64,000 nucleotides of DNA from a virus (IMGVR_UViG_3300009182_000039:24912-88911); one strand, 5' to 3'. Positions 3 through 26,911 are shown, counted from the first letter of the stretch. Numbers and translations: made by a program. The notes: generated by a model not told the origin, from the letters alone.

Positions 3-803
3 AATAATGGTGTACCTGTTGGCAAGAAAGATGTTTTAGATTTAATGGAAGCTGGTAAGATTCAAGTAAGTCAATTATATACAACTTGGTTAGCAGATCG
101 CTATTCTCGTACAATGAATGTTATCGACATGCCATTTTTGTTTAAAGATCATGATCATGCTGCTCGTGTATTCGACGGTGCTATCGGTGAAGAGCTTTTA
201 GGCAAACTAGAGTCCGAAGGCGGCGACAAGATCAAAGCATTAGCATTTACATACAGTGGTGGTTTCAGAACTATCCCTGCTACTAAGTCTATTGCTAGTG
301 TAGAAGATTTTAAAGGCGTTAAATTCCGTGTTAGTAGCGGTCCAGTTATCAAAGATACATTTGATGCGTTGGGTGCTGAAACTACATTCTTCCCAGTTGA
401 AGAATTAACAGAGCGTACATTGTCTGGCGAAGTAGAAGCCGGCGAATGTACATATACTCGTTACTATCCATTAAACCAAGACAAAGCGATGTCGTTTATT
501 AATGATATGGAACACAACATTTCTTGTACCAGTATCATTGTTAATCGCGAATTTTGGAATACTTTAACTGAAGAGCAACAAGCCGCTATGAAGGCTGCTG
601 GTGTAGCCAGTGCTAAGATTGAGCGTGTTGAAAGTGTTGAAGATGCTGTTCGTATTGAAGCAGAATGCCGCGAAAATGGTGTTACCATTACTAAGTGGGA
701 CGATACAGAAGTTGCTAAATTTAAAGCAATGATGACTCCAATCTATGACAAGTATACTACATACTTCTCGGATGATTTGGTTAATCGCATTAAAAATGCT
801 TAA
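3..803 (+). CDS. TRAP-type solute-binding protein, DctP family (5' truncated)
   Basis: This is the periplasmic receptor of a TRAP transporter, a family that binds organic acids and similar solutes. The reading frame is open from base 3 to the window edge, so the gene starts upstream; the ATG at 45 is internal and the signal peptide lies outside the window. Family features seen are the stretch around MPFLFKDHDHA, then GGFRTIP, DFKGVKFRV and a helix-rich C-terminus ending at a TAA. No TRAP membrane subunit (DctQ or DctM) follows. Instead comes a strong terminator and then a second, unrelated type of solute receptor. A phage-borne receptor without a permease would have to work with the host transporter, by analogy with phage PstS. 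Family call is secure; the ligand is unknown. Confidence 0.85.
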   Translation, partial: NNGVPVGKKDVLDLMEAGKIQVSQLYTTWLADRYSRTMNVIDMPFLFKDHDHAARVFDGAIGEELLGKLESEGGDKIKALAFTYSGGFRTIPATKSIASVEDFKGVKFRVSSGPVIKDTFDALGAETTFFPVEELTERTLSGEVEAGECTYTRYYPLNQDKAMSFINDMEHNISCTSIIVNREFWNTLTEEQQAAMKAAGVASAKIERVESVEDAVRIEAECRENGVTITKWDDTEVAKFKAMMTPIYDKYTTYFSDDLVNRIKNA

Positions 804-821
804 TTAACAAGTATTGAAATC

Positions 822-849
822 AAAGGACTCTTCGGAGTCCTTTTTTTTT
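822..849 (+). terminator. Rho-independent terminator after dctP-like gene
   Basis: A perfect stem GGACTC / GAGTCC closes a TTCG tetraloop, is extended by AAA/TTT, and is followed by nine T residues. It lies 19 nt after the stop codon. This is a textbook intrinsic terminator and separates the DctP-like gene from the following operon. Confidence 0.95.
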
Positions 850-901
850 GGTGAGCAATTTGTATGCTAAGTATTGAACTTATATAAAGAAAAACAGCAC
901 A

Positions 902-1780: not shown

Positions 1781-1784
1781 CTGC

Positions 1785-3309: not shown

Positions 3310-4452
3310 ATGGATGCATTTGACAATTTTCCGCAAGGATATTGGTTAGTCAACAATCAAAAATTTATCAATAAGTACGAAGCATTACTTTATGCCACAA
3401 AACAAAATTTACCGGTACATTATAAATTTTTTAACGAGGTATGGGAATCGTTTGATAGATCGCAACTAGGAAATTTTAGTTTACAAGAAGTATATAAACA
3501 ACGAGCACAACAATTAAGAGACAAATACGATTATTTAATTTTATATTTTTCTGGCGGAGCAGATAGTTATAATGTGTTGCGCTCGTTTATCGATAATGGA
3601 ATTAAATTAGACGAAATATGCGTTAAGTGGTGTAATGATACATTAACAGCAAATTCAGTAATTTATAAACCAAATACAACAGAAAAATCAGCTCGTAACT
3701 ATTTGAGCGAATGGGATTACGCTATTAAGCCTGTACTCGATGATATTTCTAAAACTTATCCAGAAATTAAAATAGAAATAGTTGATTGGTTTAAAGATAG
3801 AAGTTTAATCGGTAGTGAAGAAATTTTTAAAATAGTTAATCACTGGCACGATGTTGAAGTTCCATCATTAGCTACTTGGTCTCCATCGGAATTAAAATTA
3901 ATTGACCAAGGTAAGCGAGTTGGTTCAATATATGGTATTGATAAACCTCAAATTTATTTTGAAGATGATGGGTCAGCTTATATGTTTTTTCTCGATTCTG
4001 CTACAACTATGGGTACTCCAAATCCATGTAATGTATACGGTACTGAATATTTTTACTGGGCGCCAAGTTTTCCGTTAATTACTTTTGAAACTGCTAGTGC
4101 GGCTATTGCTGCATTTAGAACTGACACTATTTTAAAATCTGCTGTGTTTGATAAAGAAGTTAAAACTAATTTAAGAAAATTTGTTGAACGAATACAAATA
4201 CAACAAAAAAATTTAAGAAGTGTACTGTATGATAATTGGACTAATCGATTTCAAGCATCAAAACCACTAGCTCTCAATCGTTCCGATAAACACTTTTGGA
4301 TTTACAGAAGTCCAGAATTAAAGAATTTTAAAAATAGTTACCAGGATATGATAAAGTTGCATACTAGCCAACTGAGACCCGATATGATTTATACTGGGCT
4401 TACTACAACTATGTATAAATTTATAGCATCTAAAAAATTTTTTATATCATGA
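3310..4452 (+). CDS. PP-loop ATP pyrophosphatase-like protein 1
   Basis: This 380-residue protein has a PP-loop (SGGADS, about residues 81-86) after a predicted beta strand LYF, the signature of N-type ATP pyrophosphatases (QueC, asparagine synthase C-domain, sugar amidotransferases). Such enzymes adenylate a carboxyl or carbonyl group before amide or amidine formation. It is longer than, and only distantly similar to, the other two PP-loop proteins here (12204-13130 and 14540-15460). No glutaminase domain is fused. Its stop overlaps the start of the aminotransferase-like gene (ATGA), so the two are translationally coupled and probably act on one substrate. The exact reaction is unknown. Confidence 0.72.
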   Translation: MDAFDNFPQGYWLVNNQKFINKYEALLYATKQNLPVHYKFFNEVWESFDRSQLGNFSLQEVYKQRAQQLRDKYDYLILYFSGGADSYNVLRSFIDNGIKLDEICVKWCNDTLTANSVIYKPNTTEKSARNYLSEWDYAIKPVLDDISKTYPEIKIEIVDWFKDRSLIGSEEIFKIVNHWHDVEVPSLATWSPSELKLIDQGKRVGSIYGIDKPQIYFEDDGSAYMFFLDSATTMGTPNPCNVYGTEYFYWAPSFPLITFETASAAIAAFRTDTILKSAVFDKEVKTNLRKFVERIQIQQKNLRSVLYDNWTNRFQASKPLALNRSDKHFWIYRSPELKNFKNSYQDMIKLHTSQLRPDMIYTGLTTTMYKFIASKKFFIS

Positions 4453-5354
4453 CACCACAAGAATTATTAAAATTAAAAAGTCTTCCGTATGGTAGCATTC
4501 ACGCAATTTCTGATCCTTATATGGAAGCAGAAGTTAATAAAATTATTACCAAAGTTACACGAGACGGATGCTTGAATAACCCTACTATACACACTAAATT
4601 TTTAAATAGATTCTACGACTGGATTTTAGAAACAAAGAACAACACAATTACAGGATTAGAAAACTTTACTGCTAAAGTAATTACTAACGGATCAACAGAA
4701 GCATTCGATAAGTTTTATTTAAAAAATAAAACTCGTAGACTACGCTATTTTAAAGGCGAGTATATGTATCATGCCGCCGCTAGTAAAAGTTATTTTGAAT
4801 TAGCACCGCATATAGACGATGCGCCAATAGATTCCAACGATGTTATAGTAATAAGTTTACCATTTGCCGACACAGGCGGCGAGCATACAAGAATGAATGA
4901 AATATTAACTACTTGTAGCAAGTTGGATGTGCCTGTATTAATAGATTGCTGTTATTACGGTGCGTGTGCCAACTTAACTATGAATTTTAATTATAGTTGT
5001 ATTACTGATATTACCTTTAGTCTAGCAAAAAGTTTTCCTGTAGGTTTTATGCGAGTGGGCATGCGTTTAACTCGAGAAGATAACAATGATCCATTATTTG
5101 TTTATAATAAGAATAACTATGTTAATCGTATTGCAGCCGCGGTAGGATTAGAATTGCTAAATGTGTATAGTCCTGATTATAACTACAATGCCTATCAGTA
5201 TGTACAAAAATATTTTTGTAAAGAGTTAGGAGTTGAGCCTTCTAAATGTGTATTTTTTGCTACGAGTAAAGACAAATTTCCAGAATATAATCGCGGAACA
5301 GATTCAAATCGGTTGTGCTTTTCAAAATACTTGTATCAGCAAAAACTGCCGTAA
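4449..5354 (+). CDS. PLP-dependent aminotransferase-like protein (fold type I)
   Basis: This 301-residue protein resembles aspartate-aminotransferase-fold enzymes. NGSTEAF near residue 79 fits the phosphate-binding turn. LIDCCYYG near 164-171 supplies the Asp that contacts the pyridine nitrogen. FSLAKSFPVG near 190-199 has the S-x-x-K type Schiff-base lysine, followed by RVG. It is shorter than typical family members (about 380-400 residues), with a reduced C-terminal domain. It overlaps the PP-loop gene by 4 nt. It converges on the oxygenase gene at 5357, leaving only 2 nt between stop codons. Amino-group transfer to a keto-sugar or keto-acid is plausible. Confidence 0.7.
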   Translation: MTPQELLKLKSLPYGSIHAISDPYMEAEVNKIITKVTRDGCLNNPTIHTKFLNRFYDWILETKNNTITGLENFTAKVITNGSTEAFDKFYLKNKTRRLRYFKGEYMYHAAASKSYFELAPHIDDAPIDSNDVIVISLPFADTGGEHTRMNEILTTCSKLDVPVLIDCCYYGACANLTMNFNYSCITDITFSLAKSFPVGFMRVGMRLTREDNNDPLFVYNKNNYVNRIAAAVGLELLNVYSPDYNYNAYQYVQKYFCKELGVEPSKCVFFATSKDKFPEYNRGTDSNRLCFSKYLYQQKLP

Positions 5355-5356
5355 AT

Positions 5357-6040
5357 TTATTTTTGTTTAGCATCATCTAAGTATTTTTCCCACAGTGGTA
5401 ACAAACAGTTGTCGTATGATTTTTTAACTCCGATTTCATCTAACCATTTGTATACTTCAGGTGTATTTGAATGTTCTTTAATCGTGACTGCCGTTTCGTT
5501 GGCCGGTAGCACATCAATAACAGCAGTATATATATTTGTAATACTATTATTTTGCGCCCAGTGAGGAATATATCCGTTAGTGTCATATACAACACCATCT
5601 TCAAAAATATACTGATCATCATCAAAGTACAAATAAGGAGTACTGTCGTGTATTATTGGCAGAACAATCCTACGGCAATATTTAAATATGTTATATGGGC
5701 CATCTGTATGTCTATGAACTTTATGCCCTGGCGGTAATCTTATGATGCAAGCCCGTACAGTAGAACCATTAATTATTTTTTCTACCTGATTTAATAAATT
5801 TACCCAACTGTTTTTAAATTCTTCATTTTCGCATATATTAATATTATTAATAGTATGTAGAAAATTGTCAAGAGTTTCGGTATGATTTTGTAGCCACAAA
5901 CTATGACAATCGCTAAAATTTTTATTGACTTTACGCCTGGAATCTTGAGCCCATACCATTTCAGGTAGTTCTAATAATGGTTTTTTAATATCAGTAACAT
6001 TAAGTTTTCCTAATATCTGAACTTTCCCGTCAAGATACAT
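5357..6040 (-). CDS. 2OG-Fe(II) oxygenase, aspartyl/asparaginyl beta-hydroxylase-like
   Basis: This 227-residue protein has the Fe(II) H-x-D motif in HRHTDGPYN (about residues 108-116), the family's downstream RRIVLPI strand, and the distal iron-binding His in GYIPHWAQN near 160. It is the last gene of a four-gene leftward operon (8818 to 5357) that also has two more oxygenase-like proteins and a B12-type radical SAM protein. It ends directly before the radical SAM gene's stop with no gap. The substrate could be a protein side chain, a free amino acid or a small molecule. Confidence 0.8.
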   Translation of the reverse strand: MYLDGKVQILGKLNVTDIKKPLLELPEMVWAQDSRRKVNKNFSDCHSLWLQNHTETLDNFLHTINNINICENEEFKNSWVNLLNQVEKIINGSTVRACIIRLPPGHKVHRHTDGPYNIFKYCRRIVLPIIHDSTPYLYFDDDQYIFEDGVVYDTNGYIPHWAQNNSITNIYTAVIDVLPANETAVTIKEHSNTPEVYKWLDEIGVKKSYDNCLLPLWEKYLDDAKQK

Positions 6041-7477
6041 TTAATACTCCATAGCTTTATCGTAATATTTACTAATCATTATATCTGTTAAATTTTGTTC
6101 TTTTCTTATTTTGTGTATTTTTTTGTAAGTAGAATTTAAAATAACATCGCGAGTAAACCCTAGATTTTTTAAAGACGAATAATTCCACACGCTTGGAATT
6201 CTGATTGATCTTGTTTGTTTACGATTATTTTCGCACCAAGCGTGAGCCTGTCTTTCTGTTACAAAATCTGTTTCCCAATCTGGTCCATTAAATCTGTAAC
6301 CATATTTTTCTGGTTCTTTTTCAAATTCGCTTAACCCTAATGTAGGCGCTATATACAATTTATTATAATGCCAGTCGTGTACTTTAGATTGTATTAACCA
6401 ATCGTTGGATTCTTCCCAATCTTGTTCTGTTTCTTTACCTAATCCAGCAATCATAGAAACATTAACAATAACATCATCTCCCCATGTTTCGCCAATGTAT
6501 GTTAAAAACTTTTTGTTATTCTTAGCTCCCCATCCCTTGCCAATCATAGTACACGAAAGCGGATCAAATGATTCAATTCCAAAATGACAACTAGACAATC
6601 CAGACTCAGGCAATATTTCAAGTTGCTCCGGCCATATACTTAATAAATCCATTCTAACATACCCAATAAATTCTATTTTAAACGGTAACTCTTTAGTCAT
6701 AGCATAGAATTGTTTAGTTCTTTCCCTGTGCGAGTTTAATGTATCATCTGTGATGTGATAAGCTGTGGTTCCAAATTTTTCGTAGTTAGATATAAGAGAA
6801 TCTCTAATGTTCGACATATCTTTGTTAAAATCATCTTTGTCTTTTCCAATATGTGGATACTGACAGAACTTACATTTAAAAATACAACCCCGACTAAATT
6901 CTAAAGGTAAAGATTCGCCTGGCAAAATAAAATCATTTTCAGCAAATGTCATATTACATGATTGAATATTGTATAAAGTAGTGGCGTTATAAATTTTGTT
7001 AAGTCCTGGTCCTAGCGTAAAAACAGGAGCTAGTGTGCCTTTAAAAATATAATTACAATATTCTAAAAAAGAATGTTCTGCTTCGCCATCAAATATCCCA
7101 TCTAATTTAAAATTAATTTTTTTATACCCCCCAGACATAAATCCCCTTACCCATTGGCCTCCGGCAACTATTTTAACCCAGGGAAAGTTATCCTTGATTT
7201 CATTAAGAATATCAAATATTGGTTGTTCACCTTTTGTCATTTGTTGCGGACTTTCTAGCATACAAAATGGAGAATATCCTATTACTTTTGTTTCGTGCGT
7301 TATAAACTTTTTAAACAATGTTAATCTTTGTTCACTAGTCATAAAATATAAGAACTCTAGTACTTGTGTTGAAAATCCATGTTGCCGTAGCCACCACGCA
7401 ATTTGGTATGGCCCTAAATATCTTACTTGTCGACCAGGGTCTGTATTAGTTGTTAGTATTACTACTTGCATTAGCAA
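6041..7477 (-). CDS. B12-binding-type radical SAM protein 1
   Basis: This 478-residue protein has an N-terminal Rossmann-like region of the B12-binding kind (residues 1-140, with an AGGQW turn and DGIFDGEAE). The radical SAM cluster is C-x3-C-x2-C in CIFKCKFC near 198-205. The order B12-domain then radical SAM, and the phrase EFSRGC before the cluster, match the family of cobalamin-dependent methylases and related enzymes. The cobalamin-binding D-x-H-x-x-G motif is not evident, so actual B12 use is uncertain. It is a clear paralogue of the protein at 9794-11335. It overlaps the upstream oxygenase gene by 32 nt. Confidence 0.85.
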   Translation of the reverse strand: MLMQVVILTTNTDPGRQVRYLGPYQIAWWLRQHGFSTQVLEFLYFMTSEQRLTLFKKFITHETKVIGYSPFCMLESPQQMTKGEQPIFDILNEIKDNFPWVKIVAGGQWVRGFMSGGYKKINFKLDGIFDGEAEHSFLEYCNYIFKGTLAPVFTLGPGLNKIYNATTLYNIQSCNMTFAENDFILPGESLPLEFSRGCIFKCKFCQYPHIGKDKDDFNKDMSNIRDSLISNYEKFGTTAYHITDDTLNSHRERTKQFYAMTKELPFKIEFIGYVRMDLLSIWPEQLEILPESGLSSCHFGIESFDPLSCTMIGKGWGAKNNKKFLTYIGETWGDDVIVNVSMIAGLGKETEQDWEESNDWLIQSKVHDWHYNKLYIAPTLGLSEFEKEPEKYGYRFNGPDWETDFVTERQAHAWCENNRKQTRSIRIPSVWNYSSLKNLGFTRDVILNSTYKKIHKIRKEQNLTDIMISKYYDKAMEY

Positions 7478-8057
7478 TTAATCCTTGTTGGTCCAAATCT
7501 GACACTAAATTATTATAAGATGTAAAATCAGCCGGACCACCTAACAATGTAGTTGTTGGTGTTTTACTAAATGCAGCAAGAGTTAATACATACCTATTTT
7601 TTTTACTATAGTTAATTGCCATATGTGGAATTTGAGCATTTAACAGATAAAAAGTCTGCGGTTCGTATTTTAAACGACTAAATCGCTGATAGGTAAATTG
7701 AGTAATATCCAAATTAATTTCTTTAGGATATTCATGAGCAAAAAGTGTTAGATAGTCATCGTCATCTGTTAATAACAAATTAAATGACCACATTCTCCAC
7801 GCATCTCGATGCCAGTTATATTGATGTTCTGACTCTATTAAAAATATTTTAGCCCCTAAATTATATTTTTTCATTAAATCGTAAATAGGTTCTCCCTTAA
7901 AATAATCTGCTGTCAAATTATGTCTAAGAAAAGTTCTATTACTATCATATAGCTTAACATCTACATGTTGGTAATTGTAATTTAAGTGATCCGTAAAAAT
8001 TGGATGATCTTTCGGAAGTGTGATATTTAATTTTTCAAAACAACTATTGTTATTCAT
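7446..8057 (-). CDS. 2OG-Fe(II) oxygenase-like protein
   Basis: This 203-residue protein has an H-x-D motif in NWHRDAW near residue 85, the strand SFNLLL after it, the distal His in AQIPHMAIN near 141, and an Arg in KKNRYVLTL about 11 residues later that would hold 2-oxoglutarate. This is the arrangement of aspartyl/asparaginyl hydroxylase-like small oxygenases. It overlaps the genes on both sides (4 nt upstream, 32 nt downstream), so it belongs to a tightly coupled operon. Confidence 0.75.
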   Translation of the reverse strand: MNNNSCFEKLNITLPKDHPIFTDHLNYNYQHVDVKLYDSNRTFLRHNLTADYFKGEPIYDLMKKYNLGAKIFLIESEHQYNWHRDAWRMWSFNLLLTDDDDYLTLFAHEYPKEINLDITQFTYQRFSRLKYEPQTFYLLNAQIPHMAINYSKKNRYVLTLAAFSKTPTTTLLGGPADFTSYNNLVSDLDQQGLIANASSNTNN

Positions 8058-8818
8058 AGTTTATACACAGAGGTAGGGGTGGCTTCTGCTAATCGCTTAT
8101 CTGTTTCAGCAGTCCGTAACCCAGTAATCGTTAAATTAGGTCTAGGTTTAGTACTAACATTGGCTGTACTATGCGGTACATTTAATGTATCAAAAATGTG
8201 TACATCGCCGGCGTGCCATTGATTGTGAAATAAATTGCCGTATGTTACATATTGGCCTGGTTCAAAATCATCTAAATTTACAATAATACGAACAATGCGT
8301 GATGGATCTCCTGGATTTCTATGCCATAGTTTATCGACGTGAACAGCAAAAAATTGACCGGGCCATTGTACATGAGCGCGGTAACTTACATTTTCTAAAC
8401 ACCAATAATCCACAATCTTTTTAATACTGGAAAACTGATCTAAATAATCTTCTAATACAACATTAGTGTATTCAATGTCCTTAAGACCGCGAACTTCTCT
8501 ATCGTGTTCTTCTTGACTAATCATCGGGCTAACACCACCCTTAAATCCTGGACGATTGCCTGACTTAGTAATGGCCGCCCAATCCAGTTCTTTAGATTTT
8601 TCTATAATTTTAGCAACATCAGCAGGATCTATACCTTCAAAATTTCCTAATAAATGAAACCAATCGCCAATTTGTTCTTCTTTAAATTTATCAAAATGAT
8701 AATTACTCAAAGTTTTACTATAATCCCAGGAGCTTTTAAATTTGGCACCATCTTGGTGATTAAAGTCTGCTGGTAGTTGTTTAAATTTAGTTCTATTAGC
8801 ATATTGATTGATGTCCAT
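8054..8818 (-). CDS. 2OG-Fe(II) oxygenase-like protein
   Basis: This 254-residue protein has a double-stranded beta-helix core: the H-x-D pair in AVHVDKLWH near 159-161, RIIVNLDDF, then GDVHIFD, distal His in NVPHSTANV near 217, and Arg downstream. It is the first gene of the 8818-to-5357 operon. A perfect TATAAATA box on the minus strand ends only 5 nt before the ATG and no Shine-Dalgarno sequence is present, so a transcript from that box would be leaderless. The next in-frame Met is far inside, so this start is likely right. Confidence 0.78.
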   Translation of the reverse strand: MDINQYANRTKFKQLPADFNHQDGAKFKSSWDYSKTLSNYHFDKFKEEQIGDWFHLLGNFEGIDPADVAKIIEKSKELDWAAITKSGNRPGFKGGVSPMISQEEHDREVRGLKDIEYTNVVLEDYLDQFSSIKKIVDYWCLENVSYRAHVQWPGQFFAVHVDKLWHRNPGDPSRIVRIIVNLDDFEPGQYVTYGNLFHNQWHAGDVHIFDTLNVPHSTANVSTKPRPNLTITGLRTAETDKRLAEATPTSVYKL

Positions 8819-8823
8819 AATAC

Positions 8824-8831
8824 TATTTATA
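8824..8831 (-). promoter_or_regulatory. T4-type late promoter box, leaderless spacing
   Basis: Exact TATAAATA on the minus strand, 5 nt before the ATG at 8818. In T4 late promoters this box spans about -13 to -6, so the start site would fall on the A of the ATG. No ribosome binding site is present. Confidence 0.65.
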
Positions 8832-8834
8832 CTC

Positions 8835-17539: not shown

Positions 17540-18138
17540 CAACACTAGTTATTCCTAAAAGAAATTACGGCGGTCGCGATGATCAAAAATTTCATCCACT
17601 AATTAGTCCCGACGACGATAACAACGGGTGGACTGTAAGATATCTATGGATCCAACATCGACATAACAACGATGCGTTTTATGAAAATTACTTCGACCCA
17701 ACAAAAAAACAAACTGGCATGAATGTAAGGAAACAAACTGTTGCGTTACAAAAAGACTGGACCGCTCATAATCAAATCTTCCACGATTCACACAAAAACG
17801 GAAATTTAGTATGGCGTCTTAAGGTAGGCAATCCTATTAGTCGTAGTATAGATTATATTGAAATCTGGCGCAATGCTGATATTATAACTCAATATTTTTC
17901 GCCGCAACCTATTACACAAATTAATGAAAATATTAGTTGGCCGAAAGAAGATAGACTTAACTTTAACAAAGAATTATATGATGCTGGGTTTGATATAAGA
18001 TCTTGGGTGCCGTATCGCAATATATCAAAGTTACACGCTATGAAAACTTATAAAAAATTTATAGACCTATATGAAAGCGGTTCTGGTAATATTATTTTTA
18101 ACTCTTGGTGGAAGCGAGAGCTTAATCCTTACCAATAA
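17536..18138 (+). CDS. Protein of unknown function (200 aa)
   Basis: Not recognised. Soluble, rich in Asn, Trp and aromatic residues, with no signal peptide or membrane helix. It is the last gene of the desaturase-to-oxygenase operon and overlaps the upstream gene by 4 nt, so it is likely real and functionally linked. Its last 17 nt overlap the end of the convergent oxygenase gene at 18122. Confidence 0.7.
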   Translation: MTTLVIPKRNYGGRDDQKFHPLISPDDDNNGWTVRYLWIQHRHNNDAFYENYFDPTKKQTGMNVRKQTVALQKDWTAHNQIFHDSHKNGNLVWRLKVGNPISRSIDYIEIWRNADIITQYFSPQPITQINENISWPKEDRLNFNKELYDAGFDIRSWVPYRNISKLHAMKTYKKFIDLYESGSGNIIFNSWWKRELNPYQ

Positions 18139-18886
18139 GTTTTGCTTTTATTTCTGGTTTAAATTTGCCGTCAATTCTAATAGAAAAACTAAAATGATCA
18201 ACTGGGTCAGTGCCGTGATAATCCATTTCATTCCACCATACAAACTTTTTAGTAGGATCAGGATAAACTTTTTCTAGTGTTTCACCGTCCATTACATATA
18301 TACCCTTAGAATTTGGTTTTGTTGAAAGCCATATAAAATCATCGTTGGGTTTTTCAGCTCGTTGTTCATCGTTAGCGACATCATAATGCGGAACTGTTTG
18401 ATTGTTGGCCTCTGTCATAAAAAACATTACACGACCTATACCTTCAAATGGCATTGATTCAATAAGTTTCACTAATGATGGAAATAATGTAGCAGTTGGA
18501 GTCCAAAAACAATCTTCAGGAGTAGCTTTGTTATATACTCCTGTTTTTTCAACTCTTTTATTCCATCTTAAAAATATAACCCAAAACGGGTGCGGGGTAT
18601 GAGTTAATGCGTTAAGGAATTTTATTTTTTCATCTGTTGAATTTAATGAAACAAAAATTTTCAATTGTTCTTCAGTTAATCTATTTTTTAAATCCATGAA
18701 TGTTGTGGTTATTTCTTTTTCCGCCCAATTTTTGTGGACGCCACTAGATACAAATTTTTTATTCCATTCGGCTTTAGCAATACCTAAGGATACTTCGTTG
18801 TGAAGTTTTTCCCAGTCTGGTGCCTCTATATATTCATCTAAATATTTAAAAGGAGTTTGGATCGAATCTAATCCGATTATTGCCAT
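18122..18886 (-). CDS. 2OG-Fe(II) oxygenase-like protein
   Basis: This 254-residue protein has a candidate H-x-D in TVPHYDVAND near 165-167, the strand DDFIWLST, and a distal His/Arg region in DYHGTDPVDHFSFSIRIDG near 222-240. The first half is helical and unlike other oxygenases here. It is monocistronic, divergent from the radical SAM gene at 18948. A perfect minus-strand TATAAATA box lies 27 nt upstream of its ATG. Confidence 0.65.
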   Translation of the reverse strand: MAIIGLDSIQTPFKYLDEYIEAPDWEKLHNEVSLGIAKAEWNKKFVSSGVHKNWAEKEITTTFMDLKNRLTEEQLKIFVSLNSTDEKIKFLNALTHTPHPFWVIFLRWNKRVEKTGVYNKATPEDCFWTPTATLFPSLVKLIESMPFEGIGRVMFFMTEANNQTVPHYDVANDEQRAEKPNDDFIWLSTKPNSKGIYVMDGETLEKVYPDPTKKFVWWNEMDYHGTDPVDHFSFSIRIDGKFKPEIKAKLIGKD

Positions 18887-18913
18887 CGTGAAGTGCCTTT
18901 ATTTGTACAGTAA

Positions 18914-18921
18914 TATTTATA
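18914..18921 (-). promoter_or_regulatory. T4-type late promoter box (divergent pair, left-facing)
   Basis: Exact TATAAATA on the minus strand, 27 nt before the oxygenase ATG at 18886. It lies 2 nt from an identical box facing the other way. Confidence 0.7.
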
Positions 18922-18923
18922 CC

Positions 18924-18931
18924 TATAAATA
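18924..18931 (+). promoter_or_regulatory. T4-type late promoter box (divergent pair, right-facing)
   Basis: Exact TATAAATA, 16 nt before the ATG at 18948, with a weak AAAGAG ribosome site between. Together with 18914-18921 it makes a back-to-back divergent late promoter. Confidence 0.7.
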
Positions 18932-18947
18932 TGACAAAGAGAAAAAC

Positions 18948-20000
18948 ATGGACTTTACACCTGGAAAACCAATCAGAACTTATGACGAAAATGGATCATG
19001 GAGAGATTGGAGTACCGACGAATTAGTTGGCGCTAAATTAAATTATTTGCCAGGATGGAAGTGTGGTGCTGGTGTCGATAGTCTGTATATCGACATGGAC
19101 GGTGGTGTGTGGACTGCTAGTTGTCGGGTAGGCGGCAAATTAGGCAATGTATGGGAAAAATTTAAAAGTCCTGAAGATTGGATTAACTGTACAAGAAATG
19201 TCTGTAGCTGCGGAGCTGACCTTTTTATTCCCAAAGTAAGTAAAATAGAATTTAAAAATTTACTTCGCAAAGGTCAAAATTTATCTCCCCAGAATGATTT
19301 GCGTGACAACGAGCAAACAGAGTTTATTGCGTTGGAAAGGACCCACGCTAGTACACAAAAACAAGTTTATTGGGAAATTGGTCGTAGATGTAACTACGAC
19401 TGCGGCTATTGTTGGCCTTGGATACATAATAACACAGATCCACATAAAACATTAGAAGAACTAATGAAAGCTACACATAATATTGAAGAAAATTTTACAC
19501 AAGGTGAAAGTGTAAACTTTATTATTAGTGGCGGTGAGCCTACTGTAAACAAACACTTTTTAGAGTGGTTGCGTTACTTGAATAGTTGCGGGCATCATGT
19601 TAGTTTACATAGTAATGGTTCTAGACTGCCTGAATATTACAAAGAAATTATTCATTTTGGAGATTTAAATTTAAGCGTACACTTTGAATTTTACGACAAG
19701 GAAAAATTTTTAAAAGTAGTAGAAGCTGTTACTGCTGAAAAAGTTGCTAATAAAAACCGAGGAGTTGGGCATCTAGAAATTAAGTTTATGATGCCTCCGC
19801 ATAATCGTGAAGAAGCATTAGAATTAGAAGCAGAACTTAAAAATATTCCTGAATTTATCAACTACTGTACTTGGGCTATCGTGCCTATTCGTGGTAGTTT
19901 AGATAATAATAAGATTACTGATATGACTCGTGGTGCTGGCAGCGAAATTATGACGGGATATACTAAAGAAGATTATTTGTTATTTGGCGACCGTAAGTAA
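18948..20000 (+). CDS. Radical SAM protein with N-terminal SPASM-like Cys domain
   Basis: This protein of 350 residues has a Cys-rich domain first (about residues 36-90: WKCGAG, SCRVGGKLGN, NCTRNVCSC), then the radical SAM core with CNYDCGYC near 148-155 and SGGEPT near 190. The ORF opens 20 codons earlier at 18888, but that segment covers the late promoter, so the ATG at 18948 is the better start. The Cys domain resembles that at the C-terminus of the radical SAM protein at 22083-23039; here it is at the opposite end. Such domains bind auxiliary Fe-S clusters in SPASM/twitch enzymes acting on peptides or sugars. It converges on, and overlaps by 21 nt, the next radical SAM gene. Confidence 0.82.
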   Translation: MDFTPGKPIRTYDENGSWRDWSTDELVGAKLNYLPGWKCGAGVDSLYIDMDGGVWTASCRVGGKLGNVWEKFKSPEDWINCTRNVCSCGADLFIPKVSKIEFKNLLRKGQNLSPQNDLRDNEQTEFIALERTHASTQKQVYWEIGRRCNYDCGYCWPWIHNNTDPHKTLEELMKATHNIEENFTQGESVNFIISGGEPTVNKHFLEWLRYLNSCGHHVSLHSNGSRLPEYYKEIIHFGDLNLSVHFEFYDKEKFLKVVEAVTAEKVANKNRGVGHLEIKFMMPPHNREEALELEAELKNIPEFINYCTWAIVPIRGSLDNNKITDMTRGAGSEIMTGYTKEDYLLFGDRK

Positions 20001-21371
20001 TTTACATTCGTTATAAAAATCAACCATTTCAGGAAATGTAGCAGCAAAATTTAAATTTCTTCTTGCTGTAAGTTTATCAATATTTTCCGCAAACTCTTTC
20101 TTAGCTTGATCATTTTTATCAGGATTTAGAATACCATTTTTAATTGTTTTAAGAAATTCTACATAAGCTGGCCATGGTCCGTATGGCGAATATTTAGAAT
20201 GATCGTTAATTGCGACCATTTCTTTCTTTAATATTTCGATGCTTTCATCAATGTATCTGGCATACTCGGGCGGCAAGATATAAGGATCTAACCATTGCGG
20301 ATAAACAATTTGGTTGGGTCTAAGATGAACCCTGCGTCCTGTCTTTTTCTGTAGTTCAATGACAAATTTAAAAAAGTTAGGTAAATCACTAATACACAAT
20401 GCGTTTAACGCTATTTGAAAATTAAAAATAACTCTAAATTGTGCTGGGTCGTGTTCTTGTAAAAATACTAAAAACTTATCTATGTTAGCTGTCATTAATT
20501 GCCAATCGGTGCCGGTCCTAATAAATTCAGCACGATCGCCAATTGCTTCACAACTAACATTAAAATCTAATTTCAATTGCTTTGAACTTGCAATCTTCTT
20601 GACTGTATCTAGAAATCTATTGTAAAATTTAATTGGCGTATTAAAATTACTTACAATGCTTATGTTACGCCAATAGTCGGTTGTATTTGTGTTATAAAAA
20701 TCTATTATTCTGTTGCTATACAAATAAAATTTTTCAATAATTAGTGGTTCACCACCGATAAAGTTAATTGCCGATGCGGTTGGCCCGGCACTATTGTCAA
20801 ACCATGCCCACCATAAATCTTCATAAACAGTATCTGTAATTTTTGGAAGCTCGCGTTCAACGTCTTGTATACGAATTTCGCCATATTTTAAATTTTCGGC
20901 TGCCCATTGACTACTATAATGATGATGGCAGTACATACATTTTAAATCACATGTATTACCTAAAGAAATTTCTATCATCCTAACAGATTCTAAATTTACG
21001 AGAGTGTCTATTTCTTCAGGGGTAAGAGATTTTAATTTTTCTTTTAACTGTTCTTTAGATAAGCCAGGCCATACTTGATTTTTATTTACAAAATTAACAA
21101 AACTATCCATTCGCGACCGTGGACCACGACCGCCGCTTGCTTCAATACTCCAACAAGAATTGCAATCCTTATGTTGTACTCCTGTAAGTAAACTACGTCT
21201 AACATCTACTATTGGAATAAATTTATTGAATAATTCTATCCCTGTTTTAAAATCTTCTTCTGCTAATGTATTCGATCTGGCTCTACAACAATACCGTAAC
21301 TCGTTTCGAGATAGATTTAATACAGGATAGTCCCAAGCAAAAATACAAATAGTATCTTCAATATTATTCAT
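19980..21371 (-). CDS. Radical SAM protein, twitch/SPASM-like
   Basis: This 463-residue protein has an N-terminal Cys region (YCCRARS near residue 28, CNSCWS near 70), then the radical SAM core with SLGNTCDLKCMYC near 136-148 and FIGGEP near 205. The helix-rich C-terminal 150 residues are without recognisable Cys clusters. It is the last gene of a ten-gene leftward operon (26911 to 19980) that includes glycosyltransferase-like, methyltransferase and sulfotransferase genes. The substrate is unknown; the context suggests a sugar or peptide on a surface structure. Confidence 0.82.
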   Translation of the reverse strand: MNNIEDTICIFAWDYPVLNLSRNELRYCCRARSNTLAEEDFKTGIELFNKFIPIVDVRRSLLTGVQHKDCNSCWSIEASGGRGPRSRMDSFVNFVNKNQVWPGLSKEQLKEKLKSLTPEEIDTLVNLESVRMIEISLGNTCDLKCMYCHHHYSSQWAAENLKYGEIRIQDVERELPKITDTVYEDLWWAWFDNSAGPTASAINFIGGEPLIIEKFYLYSNRIIDFYNTNTTDYWRNISIVSNFNTPIKFYNRFLDTVKKIASSKQLKLDFNVSCEAIGDRAEFIRTGTDWQLMTANIDKFLVFLQEHDPAQFRVIFNFQIALNALCISDLPNFFKFVIELQKKTGRRVHLRPNQIVYPQWLDPYILPPEYARYIDESIEILKKEMVAINDHSKYSPYGPWPAYVEFLKTIKNGILNPDKNDQAKKEFAENIDKLTARRNLNFAATFPEMVDFYNECKLLTVAK

Positions 21372-22096
21372 TGTGTTAATTTTGTTATAAAATTCTTTAC
21401 TTCTTCGGCATTAATTATAAATTGATAAGTATCAACTGGAAGCTGTTTCTGTACCGTTACATCTAGAATACTTATAGGCATCTGTAATATCTTAGACAAA
21501 TCTTCTATTGCTGTTTCATAATGAATCACTGGTAAATTTGTTAAATTAAATATTCTTAATATACCGTCAAATCCTTTCAAATTCATGTACGCCCAATAAA
21601 TTGTTCTGAATCCCTCTCCATCGATCATCACCGAAGAATTTAGTATACCGTTTCCGTAAAAACTATTCCAATTGTGTGTTTTATGTGCTACAGCATGACT
21701 TAATAGTTGTTTTTTTATATCATTTCGTTTAAGTATCATAAATTCAAAACCACAATCATGTAATACTTTTAATATTTTATCTAAATGGGGTAACAAATAA
21801 TCGTAAGGAAATAATTTAACTACAAGAGGTTGTTCTGGATCACCTTCCATAAGAACAGATATTACATTGTTTATACGATCAGTTAACAACAGATTTCCGT
21901 CTACCTGCTCAGAGTGTTGTATGGCTTTATCATTAGTTAATATGGGTTTGTAAGGTTGATTCTCAGTAAATGGTTCAAGCATATCATAAACATGACAGTT
22001 TACATATTGTTTAATTGTTCCTGCAATAATTTGTGCTACGTATTGACTGCCAGACCGAGGGGTTCCTATAATACACCATCGATTATTCATCAACAA
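21368..22096 (-). CDS. Sulfotransferase-like protein
   Basis: This 242-residue protein has a P-loop-like CIIGTPRSGSQY at residues 8-19, which is the 5'-phosphosulfate-binding loop of PAPS-dependent sulfotransferases (GTxRSGS form). A second region, VVKLFPYDYLL and then FMILKRNDIKKQLLS near 125, fits the family's 3'-phosphate-binding R-x(n)-S motif. It overlaps the genes on both sides (4 nt and 14 nt). It would transfer sulfate from PAPS to a hydroxyl or amine, plausibly a glycan made by the same operon. Confidence 0.75.
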   Translation of the reverse strand: MLMNNRWCIIGTPRSGSQYVAQIIAGTIKQYVNCHVYDMLEPFTENQPYKPILTNDKAIQHSEQVDGNLLLTDRINNVISVLMEGDPEQPLVVKLFPYDYLLPHLDKILKVLHDCGFEFMILKRNDIKKQLLSHAVAHKTHNWNSFYGNGILNSSVMIDGEGFRTIYWAYMNLKGFDGILRIFNLTNLPVIHYETAIEDLSKILQMPISILDVTVQKQLPVDTYQFIINAEEVKNFITKLTQ

Positions 22097-23039
22097 ATTC
22101 CTTTGTGCTCATAATATCAAAATTGCAATGGCACATTTTTTTAGTACACCGCACAGGTTGTGTAGGTAAACTTAAATCTGGGTCAACAATATTACCTAGC
22201 AAGCCGCCTTCTTTACACCAACCTCGAAAGATGGCTCCGCGTTGATCCACAATTAATTGTTCGACGCCAGCATAACAATCCCACCCTGACCAGTCATTTG
22301 CTTTTTCATTGATAAACCTATGGGCACTTGCTACCAAAGAAGTATCATTTGGATACAACATTTTCATAGCGCCTCTGTAATAATCAAATGACTTATCAAA
22401 TTTTATATATTTGCTAATTAATTCGTGCTGGCGATCGATAATTTGTTTTTGTTCTGGTGTGTAGTCATATAACACTTCGCCAAAATCGTGTATTAGAGGC
22501 TGGAGGGCCATGGAAATGTTACCAAGAAGTTTTATTTTGTCTGCTATTTCATAGCAGTAGTCAAATTTTTCAGGACTCATCATAATATTAACATGAGTTC
22601 TTACAGTCTTGTTCAATATTTTTACAACTTCAATGAAATGTTCTGAATCTCCAAATTCTGGATGGAAACTTAAACATACATGATCAAAATACTGTTTGTT
22701 TTCTTCCCAATATCTTAAAGTTCTGGATCCGTTAGAAATTAAACCTACTCTAACTCCTTGTTCTGTACAAAACTGACAAATATCAATAAAATGTTTGTAC
22801 AATGTAACTTCGCCGCCAGTAAATTCAAAATAAAGTTTTTTATTGGGGTGTGTTTCTTTAACTTTTAAGATAAAATTTTTAATAGTCTCTGGAGTCGGCC
22901 ACGGATTAGACCCATCGTGTAAATTTGCTGGACAATAACTGCAGCTAAAATTACAAGTATTACCCAAACACCAGTTAACTACAAACCAGTCTGTATTAGT
23001 TTCTTGAGCGTGCACTAATTTAAAATATTTTTTCTTCAT
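22083..23039 (-). CDS. Radical SAM protein with C-terminal SPASM-like Cys domain
   Basis: This 318-residue protein has CNFSCSYC at 29-36 and FTGGEVT near 77, the radical SAM core. It then has a C-terminal Cys-rich domain (WDCYAG, WCKEGGLLGN, RCTKKMCHC) over the last 60 residues. The latter resembles the N-terminal domain of the protein at 18948-20000 residue by residue around the cysteines. The gene overlaps the sulfotransferase gene by 14 nt and follows the methyltransferase gene by 8 nt. Confidence 0.85.
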   Translation of the reverse strand: MKKKYFKLVHAQETNTDWFVVNWCLGNTCNFSCSYCPANLHDGSNPWPTPETIKNFILKVKETHPNKKLYFEFTGGEVTLYKHFIDICQFCTEQGVRVGLISNGSRTLRYWEENKQYFDHVCLSFHPEFGDSEHFIEVVKILNKTVRTHVNIMMSPEKFDYCYEIADKIKLLGNISMALQPLIHDFGEVLYDYTPEQKQIIDRQHELISKYIKFDKSFDYYRGAMKMLYPNDTSLVASAHRFINEKANDWSGWDCYAGVEQLIVDQRGAIFRGWCKEGGLLGNIVDPDLSLPTQPVRCTKKMCHCNFDIMSTKEFVDE

Positions 23040-23047
23040 TATAATTT

Positions 23048-23596
23048 TTATTTAATTCCGATTAACATATATCTGGTAAATTTCCATTCTGGATACACAA
23101 AGCGTAATTCGCCTCGGTAAACAATTTCCGACAACGGATAATGATTTGCAAAATCGGATATAGTTGTAGAATGTACAACATGGTCATCGTGCGGCATATT
23201 ATTGCCTTGTAGTATAACTCTAGTACCTTTAGGGATACAGTCAAACCATTCCATGCTTTCAAAATGTTCTGTACTAGTATTTATAATTAAATCTGGTGTG
23301 CCCTTTACACCTTGATTACAATCTAATGTAAAGGCTTTGAACTGCCATTCTTTAATTACCCAATTTTCATTAATCACATCAGCAATCGCTTCGCATGACG
23401 GATCAATGTCAAAACTTTCTATACGGTCAACTTTAAATCGTTCTCTACTAAGCAATAAAAATCCTAATACACCGTACCACCCACCGTAGATATGTGTTAG
23501 TTCACTAGTCCAGCCGAGTTTTTCTAATTCTTGGCACAACCAAAGTTTGCTATCAATTTGTCCATTAGAAAACGCATCTTTATTGAACATTACCAC
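23048..23596 (-). CDS. Class I SAM methyltransferase-like protein
   Basis: This 182-residue protein has a Rossmann-like pattern: HIYGGWYGVLGF for motif I, ESFDIDPSC with an acidic residue ending strand 2, and PDLIINTSTEHF as motif IV. It lacks a strict GxGxG, so the call is by overall pattern. It lies within the leftward glycosyltransferase operon and overlaps the upstream gene by 7 nt. A methyl cap on a glycan or lipid is plausible. Confidence 0.6.
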   Translation of the reverse strand: MVMFNKDAFSNGQIDSKLWLCQELEKLGWTSELTHIYGGWYGVLGFLLLSRERFKVDRIESFDIDPSCEAIADVINENWVIKEWQFKAFTLDCNQGVKGTPDLIINTSTEHFESMEWFDCIPKGTRVILQGNNMPHDDHVVHSTTISDFANHYPLSEIVYRGELRFVYPEWKFTRYMLIGIK

Positions 23597-24528
23597 CCCT
23601 CTAACTGACGGATAACATCAATTTCTCGAACCATAATACCTTTATTATGCCAGTCGTTTCGATAATGTGCTTTAAAAAATTTACTTGCTGTTTCATCTAA
23701 CATGGTAATAGGTAAGTCTAACTGAGTCAATAAATCTGCGGCTATTCTGCCGGCAATTTGTTCTGGATTGTGTCCGTCGATGGTGTCGTATATTGTTTTA
23801 AGCGCATCAAAGTTTTGAACTTCTTTGTAATCCCAAGTAGGATTAAGCATTAACATATAAGTACCCATTCGTGCGCCTAATATAGCCCAAACCCCATTTT
23901 CTACATCACGGCCAACATTTTGCCAGATGGTTAAATGATCAAGATTTCGACTGTTCACTTTATTTTTAAATTCTGTAACACTTGGTTTAACTCCGCGGTT
24001 TAAACACATCTTTACGCCTTCTCTAAATCCCGACCGCCATGCTTGATAGGGAGTAGCATTAGGATAAGTGGTACTATAACAATCGTACATAGCAATATAG
24101 TTAGGATAGAAACAAAACTCTACATCATTTGCCGCTGTGCCATCGCTGTTTTCGTGAGTTTTCATATTGTAAATAAAATCTTTAGTCCAACAACTTAGTC
24201 CGCCATTGCCATACATTAATCCGTTAATGATATTACGAGCTCGCCACCGGAAAACGCAATCTTTATCGTTATCATCGATAGAAAGAGCAAGGTCAAAAAA
24301 GTTATCGTCAGGAACATTGTCGCCATCGATCAATACAAATCGATCTGTAATAGCAGCATCGGCGGCGGCTTTATGTGCTGCATCTGAACCTTTAACTCCG
24401 TCAACACGCATTGCCCAAGGCACCATATTTTTAATTTTAACCCAATTTTCTTCTTTATTGGGTTCATCATATGTCAAGTATATGCAGTCTAATTCTGCTA
24501 TATCTATTTTGTTCACCTTAAACTCCAT
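23590..24528 (-). CDS. Glycosyltransferase-like protein (GT-A type)
   Basis: This 312-residue protein has a strand followed by FVLIDGDNVPDDN near residue 64-76; the D-G-D motif after a hydrophobic strand is the metal- and nucleotide-sugar-binding site of GT-A glycosyltransferases. VFRWRARNIINGLMYGNGG further on is typical of acceptor-side loops. The C-terminal third is helical. It is embedded in the leftward operon and overlaps its neighbours on both sides. Confidence 0.6.
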   Translation of the reverse strand: MEFKVNKIDIAELDCIYLTYDEPNKEENWVKIKNMVPWAMRVDGVKGSDAAHKAAADAAITDRFVLIDGDNVPDDNFFDLALSIDDNDKDCVFRWRARNIINGLMYGNGGLSCWTKDFIYNMKTHENSDGTAANDVEFCFYPNYIAMYDCYSTTYPNATPYQAWRSGFREGVKMCLNRGVKPSVTEFKNKVNSRNLDHLTIWQNVGRDVENGVWAILGARMGTYMLMLNPTWDYKEVQNFDALKTIYDTIDGHNPEQIAGRIAADLLTQLDLPITMLDETASKFFKAHYRNDWHNKGIMVREIDVIRQLEGW

Positions 24529-24830
24529 TTAATATTTGGTTCCGTTTTTTTAACTACTATACTGACATCGGTGGGATGACACGGAATACCAGTTTTGGCA
24601 GGGTACAATCTTTTTACTATCGATGTATCGAGCACAACTATGTTATTATCAACTACTCTTATGTGTGTAGGAGGATTAACATATACTTCTCTAGTAATGT
24701 CTATATAATTACCTGGCAAATCCTCTTGGCTATAAAAAAGTGGCTGGCCTTGATCATCATAATACAGCCTATATAGAATAGGTTTTGGTTCTGCGGGTGT
24801 TAATGCCGCCCAAAATTCTTGTTCATTCAT
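24513..24830 (-). CDS. Small protein of unknown function (105 aa)
   Basis: Not recognised. Beta-rich, with a tyrosine- and proline-containing N-terminal half (ILYRLYYDDQGQPLFYS). No membrane segment. It overlaps its neighbours by 16 and 8 nt in the leftward operon, which supports its reality. Confidence 0.65.
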   Translation of the reverse strand: MNEQEFWAALTPAEPKPILYRLYYDDQGQPLFYSQEDLPGNYIDITREVYVNPPTHIRVVDNNIVVLDTSIVKRLYPAKTGIPCHPTDVSIVVKKTEPNIKWSLR

Positions 24831-25110
24831 CGTGTAAGCCGTGATGTGGTCGGTCGATATCTTGGAATAAGCGTTTTTCCTGTGCTGTTAGTTTATCTTT
24901 TCCTTTGGCCGTTTCGTTATGCCGAGGATTAGAGCACATAGGACAATGCGGGATGCCGCAATCCATAGCATGATGTTTAGCCAAGCGATGCGGTTCCTCG
25001 ATTGGTTTAGTAAGCCCATGAGACTTAGCAATTCTTAATTGTTTTTTAATTGCGGTCCAGGCTTTGTGTAAACGCTTACTATGTTTAATCTTATCTTCAT
25101 CTTTACTCAT
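24823..25110 (-). CDS. Small His/Cys-rich protein (95 aa), possible zinc binder
   Basis: Not recognised as a family. It is highly basic and helical in the first half. The central segment HHAMDCGIPHCPMCSNPRH has Cys and His spaced as a possible zinc site, and more His residues follow near the C-terminus. It overlaps genes on both sides by 8 nt. It could be a nucleic-acid-binding or adaptor protein. Confidence 0.65.
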   Translation of the reverse strand: MSKDEDKIKHSKRLHKAWTAIKKQLRIAKSHGLTKPIEEPHRLAKHHAMDCGIPHCPMCSNPRHNETAKGKDKLTAQEKRLFQDIDRPHHGLHDE

Positions 25111-25825
25111 TTACTAGATCCTTTATATGATAATGTACTAAACCCCACTGTGCTACTGTGTTAATTCTAACTCCAGGATTAGTATGTTCGCATACTAATT
25201 CCCTACTCCAATCTTCTGAAATAATAGGTATCATATGTTTTTTCATATGAACTATAGTCGGCCCTGCTGGTAAGGTAACTTGTTCAACGCCTATAATAAC
25301 TGAAGCTAATCCATAAACTACATCAGTAGTAGGTATTTCGTCTGGGAATTTTAATAATGTTTTATAACTTTTCCAATTTTCAAATATATTACGAACCAAT
25401 GTAAAAAATTCTTTAGCTAAGTCACTCGCTTCCCAATATGTGATGGCATTGTAAACATCCGGCAAGTTATTGTTATCAAATATTTTACGATAGACCCTTG
25501 ATTTACCAGGTTGATCATAAAAATCTCTACACCCTTGGCTGATGACTACATTGCGATTGGAAAATAATTCCCACCAATGATCGATAGGACTAGCGCACCA
25601 CATATCAGCTTCTAACTTAATAGTTTTTTTATAAGGGCTTGCCTCGTAACATTGCCAGTCATTGGCAAAACCTTTAAGTTTTCCATAGGGCAACATATCT
25701 TCTGTTAAAATTGTAATATTAGCACTAGGATGCCACGCTAATATACTATCCGCTAATTGTTTAGCACATTTAACATAGACATCGCCTATAGCTGGAATTA
25801 AATAACCTTGATCAACTAGCAACAA
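25103..25825 (-). CDS. Glycosyltransferase-like protein (GT-A type)
   Basis: This 240-residue protein begins with an IGDVYVKCAKQLADSI helix, as in glycogenin-like or GT8-like transferases. A hydrophobic strand then leads to KLEADMWCASP near 70-80, a D-x-D-like site (E-A-D). It overlaps its neighbours (14 nt and 8 nt). It probably acts with the adjacent GT-like protein on the same glycan. Confidence 0.55.
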   Translation of the reverse strand: MLLVDQGYLIPAIGDVYVKCAKQLADSILAWHPSANITILTEDMLPYGKLKGFANDWQCYEASPYKKTIKLEADMWCASPIDHWWELFSNRNVVISQGCRDFYDQPGKSRVYRKIFDNNNLPDVYNAITYWEASDLAKEFFTLVRNIFENWKSYKTLLKFPDEIPTTDVVYGLASVIIGVEQVTLPAGPTIVHMKKHMIPIISEDWSRELVCEHTNPGVRINTVAQWGLVHYHIKDLVNE

Positions 25826-26606
25826 TATCTCCTAAATGCTTTTTACCCATGGCATGAAAATCTTGTGCCAAAGTTATATAGCGTGGTTTTAGATCAGGAG
25901 TTAAAAAATCTACGCGATAGTTATCTTCGCTAACTTTTGTTAATTTATGTGCCGGAGTAACTGATGCTAAACCCCAAGGAATATCAGTGTAATTAAGTAT
26001 GTGTCCGTTAACAATGCCTAACGCTATACTTAACGCAAAATCGTTGCGATATGTTGGTCTATTAACACCATATAAATTTTTAAAGTGTTGCCAATTATTT
26101 TTTATCATAGCCATACAATCAAAAATCATTTTAGCTTCTGTAGAACGTCTAAACATCATTACAGTTGCCCACCACATAGGCATATTATAATTTCCAAAAT
26201 TGTTAAGCTCGTCAAAATTATCTTGCTTGACTACATCGTACGCTGTTTTGTGTGCTACAAAATTTTCTTTTATATTTAAAATTTTTTTTAATTCGCTACT
26301 GGCTACAACATAATCAGCATCTAACACCAAAGTTTGACCCCACGGCGTTAACTCATATGCGTTAACTCGATTGCCGTTATACCATGTTACATTTTCTGCT
26401 TGATCTTCAAATTTTCTAGAATAGTTGCCTTCGGGAATAGCCGGGATTACCTGTTCAAAAAAATAGTTATGAGGAATTGTTTGATCTGTTACTACTGCTA
26501 CTGGTAATTGTAAATGTCTGCGGATATTTTTAGCTGACCAATTAGCCATGGCAAGATAATCTATATGTTCATTATTAAAAGCAAATATTAATACACCAGT
26601 TGTCAT
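25812..26606 (-). CDS. Glycosyltransferase-like protein (GT-A type)
   Basis: This 264-residue protein starts with a nucleotide-binding-like strand GVLIFAFNN and has TLVLDADYVVAS near 93-104, the D-x-D metal site of GT-A enzymes. WWATVMMFRRS near 148 is compatible with the acceptor loop. It is similar in plan to the protein at 25103-25825 and overlaps it by 14 nt. Confidence 0.65.
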   Translation of the reverse strand: MTTGVLIFAFNNEHIDYLAMANWSAKNIRRHLQLPVAVVTDQTIPHNYFFEQVIPAIPEGNYSRKFEDQAENVTWYNGNRVNAYELTPWGQTLVLDADYVVASSELKKILNIKENFVAHKTAYDVVKQDNFDELNNFGNYNMPMWWATVMMFRRSTEAKMIFDCMAMIKNNWQHFKNLYGVNRPTYRNDFALSIALGIVNGHILNYTDIPWGLASVTPAHKLTKVSEDNYRVDFLTPDLKPRYITLAQDFHAMGKKHLGDIVAS

Positions 26607-26911
26607 CTATTTTTGCTAAGTTGTTCGTGTTCTTCAAACCATAACTTCATAGTTTCTTGCCAGCGGGTTTTTGCTAAATTTAATAATTCTTTATAATCAA
26701 CTATAACTGGAGTTTCATACAAATCAAATAAGTATAATACTTGTTGACCTTCTGATGCTTTAAGTATGTTAATCAATTCGGGCCCAGCTTTAAACATTCC
26801 ACCATTATAAGCAAAAATAAGTTTGCTTTGATATTTTTCTTTGAGTGTCCGTTTGGCTGCCGCATGTTCAAAACGACTACGGCCGTGAGCAACTAAATTA
26901 TCAGTATCCAT
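26603..26911 (-). CDS. Small conserved-type phage protein (102 aa), unknown function
   Basis: No function known to me. The opening NLVAHGRSRFEHAAAKRTLKEKY is a pattern I associate with short hypothetical proteins of T4-like marine phages. It is the first gene of the ten-gene leftward operon. A TATAATAA element ends 4 nt before the ATG and there is no Shine-Dalgarno sequence, so this too may be leaderless. Confidence 0.7.
   Translation of the reverse strand: MDTDNLVAHGRSRFEHAAAKRTLKEKYQSKLIFAYNGGMFKAGPELINILKASEGQQVLYLFDLYETPVIVDYKELLNLAKTRWQETMKLWFEEHEQLSKNR

Follow-up and report, generated by a model that had tools for sequence, protein, structure and literature searches.

The window analysed here is a stretch of 64,000 nucleotides (IMGVR_UViG_3300009182_000039:24912-88911) belonging to an 88,911-base virus record of IMG/VR, itself a fragment. 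Its first 27 kb hold an island of enzyme genes followed by fibre-like and baseplate genes, and analysis of the open reading frames (ORFs) bears out the enzyme repertoire and, through PHROGs, the adjacency to virion genes that had been proposed from the sequence. Genes are designated below by one of their window coordinates. Near the middle of the island lies an operon (13722-18138, plus strand) in which all five junctions overlap by 1-4 bases, and the cassette at its head is the main subject of this report. The cassette core consists of a membrane fatty-acid desaturase (13722-14540), a PP-loop ATPase with an asparagine-synthetase-like fold and no glutaminase domain (14540-15460), and a GNAT-fold acyltransferase, GNAT2, which is conserved beside the PP-loop gene (15457-16056). 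It is followed on the same strand by two genes predicted to encode 2-oxoglutarate (2OG) oxygenases, one of the Asp/Asn-hydroxylase type (AspH; 16053-16661, Pfam Asp_Arg_Hydrox) and one of the TauD type (16658-17539, Pfam TauD, with PlaO1 and AtsK as PDB relatives). The last gene of the operon (17536-18138) has neither a Pfam nor a PHROG match and is kept in several relatives. A GNAT-like gene (13120-13698, minus strand) is divergent to the cassette and holds this position in relatives with the window's layout.

The three core proteins can be placed in fold classes. The desaturase passes the Pfam cut-off for FA_desaturase, its family profile aligns across the domain with acyl-CoA desaturase 1 (stearoyl-CoA desaturase 1, SCD1; E 2.4e-22), and its histidine boxes are invariant in the family alignment. 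It is predicted to be an acyl-CoA/fatty-acid desaturase of the SCD1-like type, with activity on acyl chains. The PP-loop protein, of 306 residues and called the ligase below, carries an invariant SGGTDSE motif, and its structural model (pLDDT 87) retrieves asparagine synthetase, beta-lactam synthetase, MnmA and LarE in Foldseek. It shares the PP-loop fold and the SGGxDS motif with asparagine and beta-lactam synthetases but differs from them in lacking the N-terminal glutaminase domain, and it scores 15.8 bits with the AsnB model TIGR01536, whose cut-off is 267. HIV gp120 chains among the weak PDB matches of its profile were set aside as chance. The GNAT2 model (pLDDT 83) matches GNATs of the SpeG type.

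A search of viral contigs with the ligase (14540-15460) gave a first set of 34 loci, in almost all of which the PP-loop, GNAT and desaturase genes stand in tandem. Just upstream, the relatives have a gene for a small protein bearing DSLD, an acyl-carrier motif, and this gene is preceded by a second GNAT-like gene, GNAT1. In a census with hidden Markov models (HMMs), the full five-gene arrangement GNAT1-ACP-PPloop-GNAT2-desaturase, where ACP is the acyl carrier protein, was present in 22 loci, the remainder being cut by the contig end or missing GNAT1 or the ACP. Most of the ACPs pass the Pfam PP-binding cut-off, and the D-S-L triplet, which contains the serine for phosphopantetheine attachment, is invariant; in one locus (L041), GNAT1 and the ACP are fused in a single ORF. 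A profile search enlarged the set to 78 viral loci, one of them on a 525-kb contig, and the ligase, GNAT2 and desaturase genes occur together in nearly all. The ligase gene is near-full in 75 loci. The ACP layout accounts for 33 of these, GNAT1 without an ACP for 20 and the window-type order desaturase-PPloop-GNAT2 for 18; three are unclassed, and a mixed layout, GNAT1-ACP-desaturase-PPloop-GNAT2, was found once.

The window's cassette is of the ACP-less layout, with the two 2OG oxygenases added. A longer set, in which the divergent gene 13120 is joined by the desaturase, PP-loop, GNAT2, AspH and TauD genes, recurs in 12 listed loci that include near-duplicates; AspH follows GNAT2 in most window-type relatives, and the position of TauD is likewise conserved. 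Neither the family HMM nor Pfam detects an ACP or a GNAT1 in the window's 88.9-kb record. Profile comparison nevertheless links the family of 13120 to that of GNAT1 (E 3.7e-5, probability 71%), so GNAT1 may be present in the other orientation, with 13120 as its probable homologue.

The limits of the cassette are sharp. In 25 non-redundant loci, whose ligases are from 49% identical (median 61%), the commonest gene family at positions -2, -1, +1 and +2 from the ligase occupies 64, 76, 100 and 91% of loci, respectively, and at three genes and beyond on either side it never exceeds 14%. The pairwise distances of the five cassette proteins correlate with one another (r 0.42-0.82), and none of 2000 permutations gave values as high. 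Such a correlation is partly expected from a common phage history, but the sharp conservation edge is not. The median dN/dS of 0.06-0.07 for the ligase, GNAT2 and desaturase indicates purifying selection. The viral ligases form one clade, joined by a long branch to the bacterial ones, and the window falls beside the relatives that share its layout. That the cassette is a selected unit in changing surroundings is thus well supported.

By tblastn, 50,697 annotated phage records contain nothing that matches the ligase, GNAT2 or ACP, the ligase has no match in plasmids, and no report of the cassette as a unit was found in the open-access literature. A pattern scan for bacterial ligases recovered them in metagenome-assembled genomes of Bdellovibrionales only (in this class, 24 of the 144 genomes have one). 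On one chromosomal contig of this group (L048), genes for AspH, a B12-type radical S-adenosylmethionine (SAM) protein, a PP-loop protein, a desaturase, a membrane protein, a GNAT2-like protein, an ACP and a second desaturase are grouped; the other bacterial loci hold some of these genes only. The kinds of gene are those of the phage cassette, whereas the order is different, the identity is about 27%, and a long branch separates the bacterial sequences from the viral clade. A desaturase match in "Acinetobacter phage MD-2021a" (L185, CAKLQH020000002.1) was rejected as phage evidence, its surroundings (accD, trpA, baeS) looking bacterial; the stretch examined contains bacterial-looking genes only and is probably a mislabelled bacterial contig.

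Two kinds of known enzyme help to interpret the cassette. Carrier proteins supply the acyl groups used by GNATs such as FeeM, SbzC and SbzI (PMC6331615), and the phage GNATs share the fold of these enzymes and, in relatives, have an ACP gene adjacent or, once, fused; the likeness is one of fold, and the window's own record has no ACP. CtaC, from closthioamide biosynthesis, is a PP-loop enzyme that acts on a carrier-bound substrate (PMC6772006). The phage ligase belongs to the same PP-loop/AANH superfamily, and CtaC works with a small carrier protein, yet CtaC requires Fe-S cysteines, and no cysteine is invariant among 25 sequences of the phage family; a role as a CtaC-type thioamide synthetase was rejected for this lack of conserved cysteines. 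Given that carrier-dependent GNATs and a carrier-linked PP-loop enzyme are known, and with a desaturase at hand, an unsaturated acyl-amide would be the simplest product.

The reading that we favour, tentatively and with somewhat less than even confidence, is that the cassette is a transferable biosynthetic unit for an unsaturated N-acyl or amide molecule made during infection. It is grounded in gene linkage, fold classes, purifying selection and the conserved serine of the carrier protein, and the similar gathering of genes on the Bdellovibrionales contig L048 counts in its favour. Because the ligase, acyltransferase and desaturase are kept as a unit, the phages probably make a fatty-acid-based molecule in infected bacteria. 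By analogy with the enzymes above, we infer a possible order of reactions, with its substrates, product, purpose and benefit to the phage. An acyl chain on the ACP, phage-encoded or, in the ACP-less window type, the host's, would undergo desaturation; the PP-loop ligase would activate a carboxylate with ATP to form an amide, and one or both GNATs would transfer the acyl group onto an amine. Where the window's layout is concerned, the two 2OG oxygenases might then hydroxylate the product, which could modify the host envelope or serve as a signal or toxin. The original prediction spoke of making or editing a "surface glycan, lipid or peptide", which now appears too broad: the cassette points to acyl-chain and amide chemistry, and the 26911-19980 operon to glycosylation and radical SAM chemistry.

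Several observations weigh against this reading. Roughly half of the loci, among them that of the window, have no ACP in the neighbourhood, and no phosphopantetheinyl transferase is encoded in 20 records, so that activation of the ACP would fall to the host's AcpS. With modest TM-scores (0.3-0.5), the structural matches of the ligase name its superfamily, not its reaction. The FA_desaturase superfamily also includes hydroxylases. Finally, no late box was found upstream of the 13722 operon. A wider version of the idea, held more tentatively still, is that a widespread jumbo T4-like lineage may carry a self-contained carrier-protein pathway to a new unsaturated acyl-amide made during infection, paralleling the Bdellovibrionales cluster; phages of lytic type would then have a pathway for a natural product or lipid. 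Auxiliary genes of phages are usually interpreted singly, and here a unit is kept across very different flanks: a ligase, acyltransferases, a desaturase, oxygenases and, frequently, a carrier protein have the anatomy of a biosynthetic pathway. If the cassette produced a small molecule or lipid, its carriers would be rewriting host membrane chemistry or emitting compounds with dedicated machinery, and a cassette of three to five genes is small enough for a direct test in a laboratory host.

The surroundings of the cassette suggest another explanation, namely that the island is a hypervariable host-recognition region of the T4 superfamily, a loose store of locally linked genes, gained separately, that modify the envelope or sugars and form no single pathway. 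The defining borders of such a region are VrlC and the neck gene gp14. In pelagimyophages a hypervariable island of this kind holds radical SAM cassettes and glycosyltransferases along with tail fibres (PMC7029224), and Pelagibacter phage Mosig (MT647606) has a similar set beside its tail fibres, comprising AspH, fatty-acid desaturase, aminotransferase, TauD, GNAT and MoaA-like genes. The gene content around the cassette also varies from relative to relative, as it does in T4-like hypervariable islands. The window resembles the pelagimyophage and cyanomyophage islands in its T4-like core, tail-fibre adjacency, glycosyltransferases, radical SAM proteins, AspH, desaturase and GNAT; it differs in that no ACP-PPloop-GNAT-desaturase unit was found in those islands by the tblastn search of annotated phage records and in that its phage is of the jumbo type. 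Enzyme-rich variable islands beside the tail fibres of T4-like aquatic phages are known, and the conserved cassette is what is new. A loose store sits poorly with the sharp edge of the cassette and the purifying selection on it, and two further modules of the island (modules 2 and 3, below) are conserved too. This explanation is held to be rather unlikely, although it is the strongest of the rivals.

The proximity of the island to fibre genes and to a gene for a 4919-residue protein in the virion region raises the improbable alternative that the enzymes modify virion proteins, the 2OG, radical SAM, PP-loop and glycosyltransferase proteins decorating other tail proteins along with the giant fibre. 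Protein hydroxylation by AspH-type enzymes is known from other systems, and a late box is common to several units, which would fit this idea; a membrane desaturase and an ACP are nevertheless unsuited to protein modification, and the cassette moves among different flanks. A role of the PP-loop and radical SAM proteins in producing modified nucleobases of DNA or tRNA, through QueC-like chemistry, is very improbable. The ligase does show weak matches to QueC, LarE and MnmA, and a separate QueC-like gene lies at L001:7887-8507, but the ligase scores 20.7 bits with TIGR00364 against an NCBIfam cut-off of 150, for which a QueC or tRNA-modification role was rejected; the missing invariant cysteine and the desaturase and ACP partners also speak against it.

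Beyond the cassette, the enzyme counts that the original prediction had given for the window (six 2OG oxygenase-like, five radical SAM and three PP-loop proteins) were confirmed by the HxD...H triad, Pfam, NCBIfam and similarity between paralogues. The triad is present in 5357, 7446, 8054, 16053, 16658 and 18122; Pfam backs 5357, 16053 and 16658, and the motif alone assigns 7446, 8054 and 18122. Residues H160, D162 and H216 of 8054 are kept in three phages, and the family of 18122 (18122-18886, minus strand, with an HYD...H motif) recurs near the cassette in relatives. Pfam identifies four radical SAM proteins (6041, 9794, 18888 and 22083), and the fifth, 19980, matches an NCBIfam twitch family. 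Two of them are related and have opposite domain orders: in 18888-20000 (plus strand) a SPASM-like cysteine part precedes the core, and in 22083-23039 it follows it; the permuted order is also seen in L189, L190, L191 and L262. PADLOC matches to viperin cover part of the profile only, and a viperin identity was rejected. The PP-loop ATPases are 3310, 12204 and 14540, the first assigned through its similarity to 14540; the second (12204-13130, minus strand) is a paralogue of the ligase with 26% identity and is adjacent to it in several relatives. The island also encodes a Rieske protein (11381) and an amidohydrolase (1785), in addition to the desaturase 13722 already described. The PLP-like 4449, the sulfotransferase-like 21368 and the glycosyltransferase-like proteins were named from sequence features and have no family match.

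Other island genes lie in the record before the window and encode two additional PP-loop paralogues, an NAD-epimerase and more HxD-type proteins. Small HxD (2OG-type) proteins lie there at L001:2648-3253, 7249-7890, 9136-9669, 9804-10415 and 11877-12473, with a possible sixth, bearing an HxH motif, at L001:5245-5835; these five or six and the window's six make about a dozen in 88.9 kb. A DctP gene (L002:11720-12715) begins ahead of the window, whose first ORF (45-803) is its 3′ part, and no signal peptide is seen in the DctP product. Two TctC-type binding proteins (902-1780 and 8835-9758; Pfam) have signal-peptide-like N-termini and are read as exported solute-binding proteins, in a phage, and relatives of the second TctC protein and of DctP reappear in related phages.

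Conserved combinations of island genes, which the original prediction had proposed to seek in related phages, do exist, with at least three modules kept together. Module 2 consists of 3310, 4449, 6041, 7446, 8054 and 8835. On the minus strand (5357-11335), these genes and their neighbours encode AspH 5357, the B12-type radical SAM protein 6041, the 2OG proteins 7446 and 8054, TctC 8835 and a second B12-type radical SAM protein, 9794 (Pfam); on the plus strand (3310-5354) lie the PP-loop gene 3310 and the PLP-fold gene 4449. The whole module or a large part of it is grouped in L004, L005-L007 and L011/L106, and a smaller part in L104, L105 and L110-L111; the 3310-4449 pair is adjacent in L104 and L106. 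Rescanning with the family profile of 6041 yielded no additional loci. About 60 viral loci (L112-L164) contain a member of the PLP-like family to which 4449 belongs, many of them with neighbours unlike the window's. Module 3 is the minus-strand operon 19980-26911, with the twitch radical SAM 19980, sulfotransferase-like 21368, radical SAM 22083, 23048, glycosyltransferase-like 23590, 25103 and 25812, and small genes; its genes 22083-26606 are syntenic in L189 and L190. Most junctions overlap or abut in the 8818-5357 and 26911-19980 operons, which, like that of the cassette, are organised as claimed from their coupled overlaps.

The claim that several of the enzyme genes share a late promoter box with one another holds for part of the island. 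The exact box TATAAATA occurs seven times on both strands, four of these at 5-60 bp before genes, where permuted motifs fall in 4.4% of cases (p ~1e-4). The form with a free first base, NATAAATA, has 16 occurrences, ten of them at that distance; its significance is optimistic because the degenerate form was picked after a first look at the sites. These sites precede the virion genes 29229, 48265, 48693 and 56573 and the enzyme units 2896, 8818, 11335 and 18886. Exact boxes stand, all on the minus strand, before the 8818-5357 operon (8824-8831), before 18886 (18914-18921) and before the baseplate wedge gene (48286-48293). The box is rare at the start of the cassette operon in the 34 relatives, and none was found upstream of the 26911 operon. 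With two of the three named operons (13722 and 26911) devoid of a box, "late" is valid for some units only, and late expression of that part, as predicted from the motif, is partly supported. A terminator-like hairpin separates the 26911 operon from the fibre genes; scans for sigma-70 promoters and terminators gave counts not above those of shuffles.

The virion genes adjoining the island (26980-56573, minus strand; PHROGs) encode fibre-like proteins, the 4919-residue protein, baseplate wedge and hub proteins and structural proteins, and are followed by a gene for a gp55-like late sigma factor (56627-57595, plus strand; PHROGs 12791 and 234). PHROGs also assigns gp46- and gp47-like recombination proteins in the window, so that gp55, gp46, gp47 and the baseplate wedge represent the T4-type core in the record. 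The wedge protein shares about 35% identity with its counterparts in phages such as 121Q, PBECO4, GAP32 and Phosso, whose genomes measure ~310-470 kb. Six records of at least 200 kb with the cassette, module 2 or a related PLP gene were tested, and all encode the same wedge protein, at 37-51% identity. These gene assignments place the window in the genome of a T4-like phage of the jumbo type. A tRNA-Ile (aat) called by ARAGORN at 24767-24840 (plus strand) lies inside two overlapping minus-strand genes and is probably a false positive. In the tail region, a single ORF of 4919 codons spans 30078-44837.

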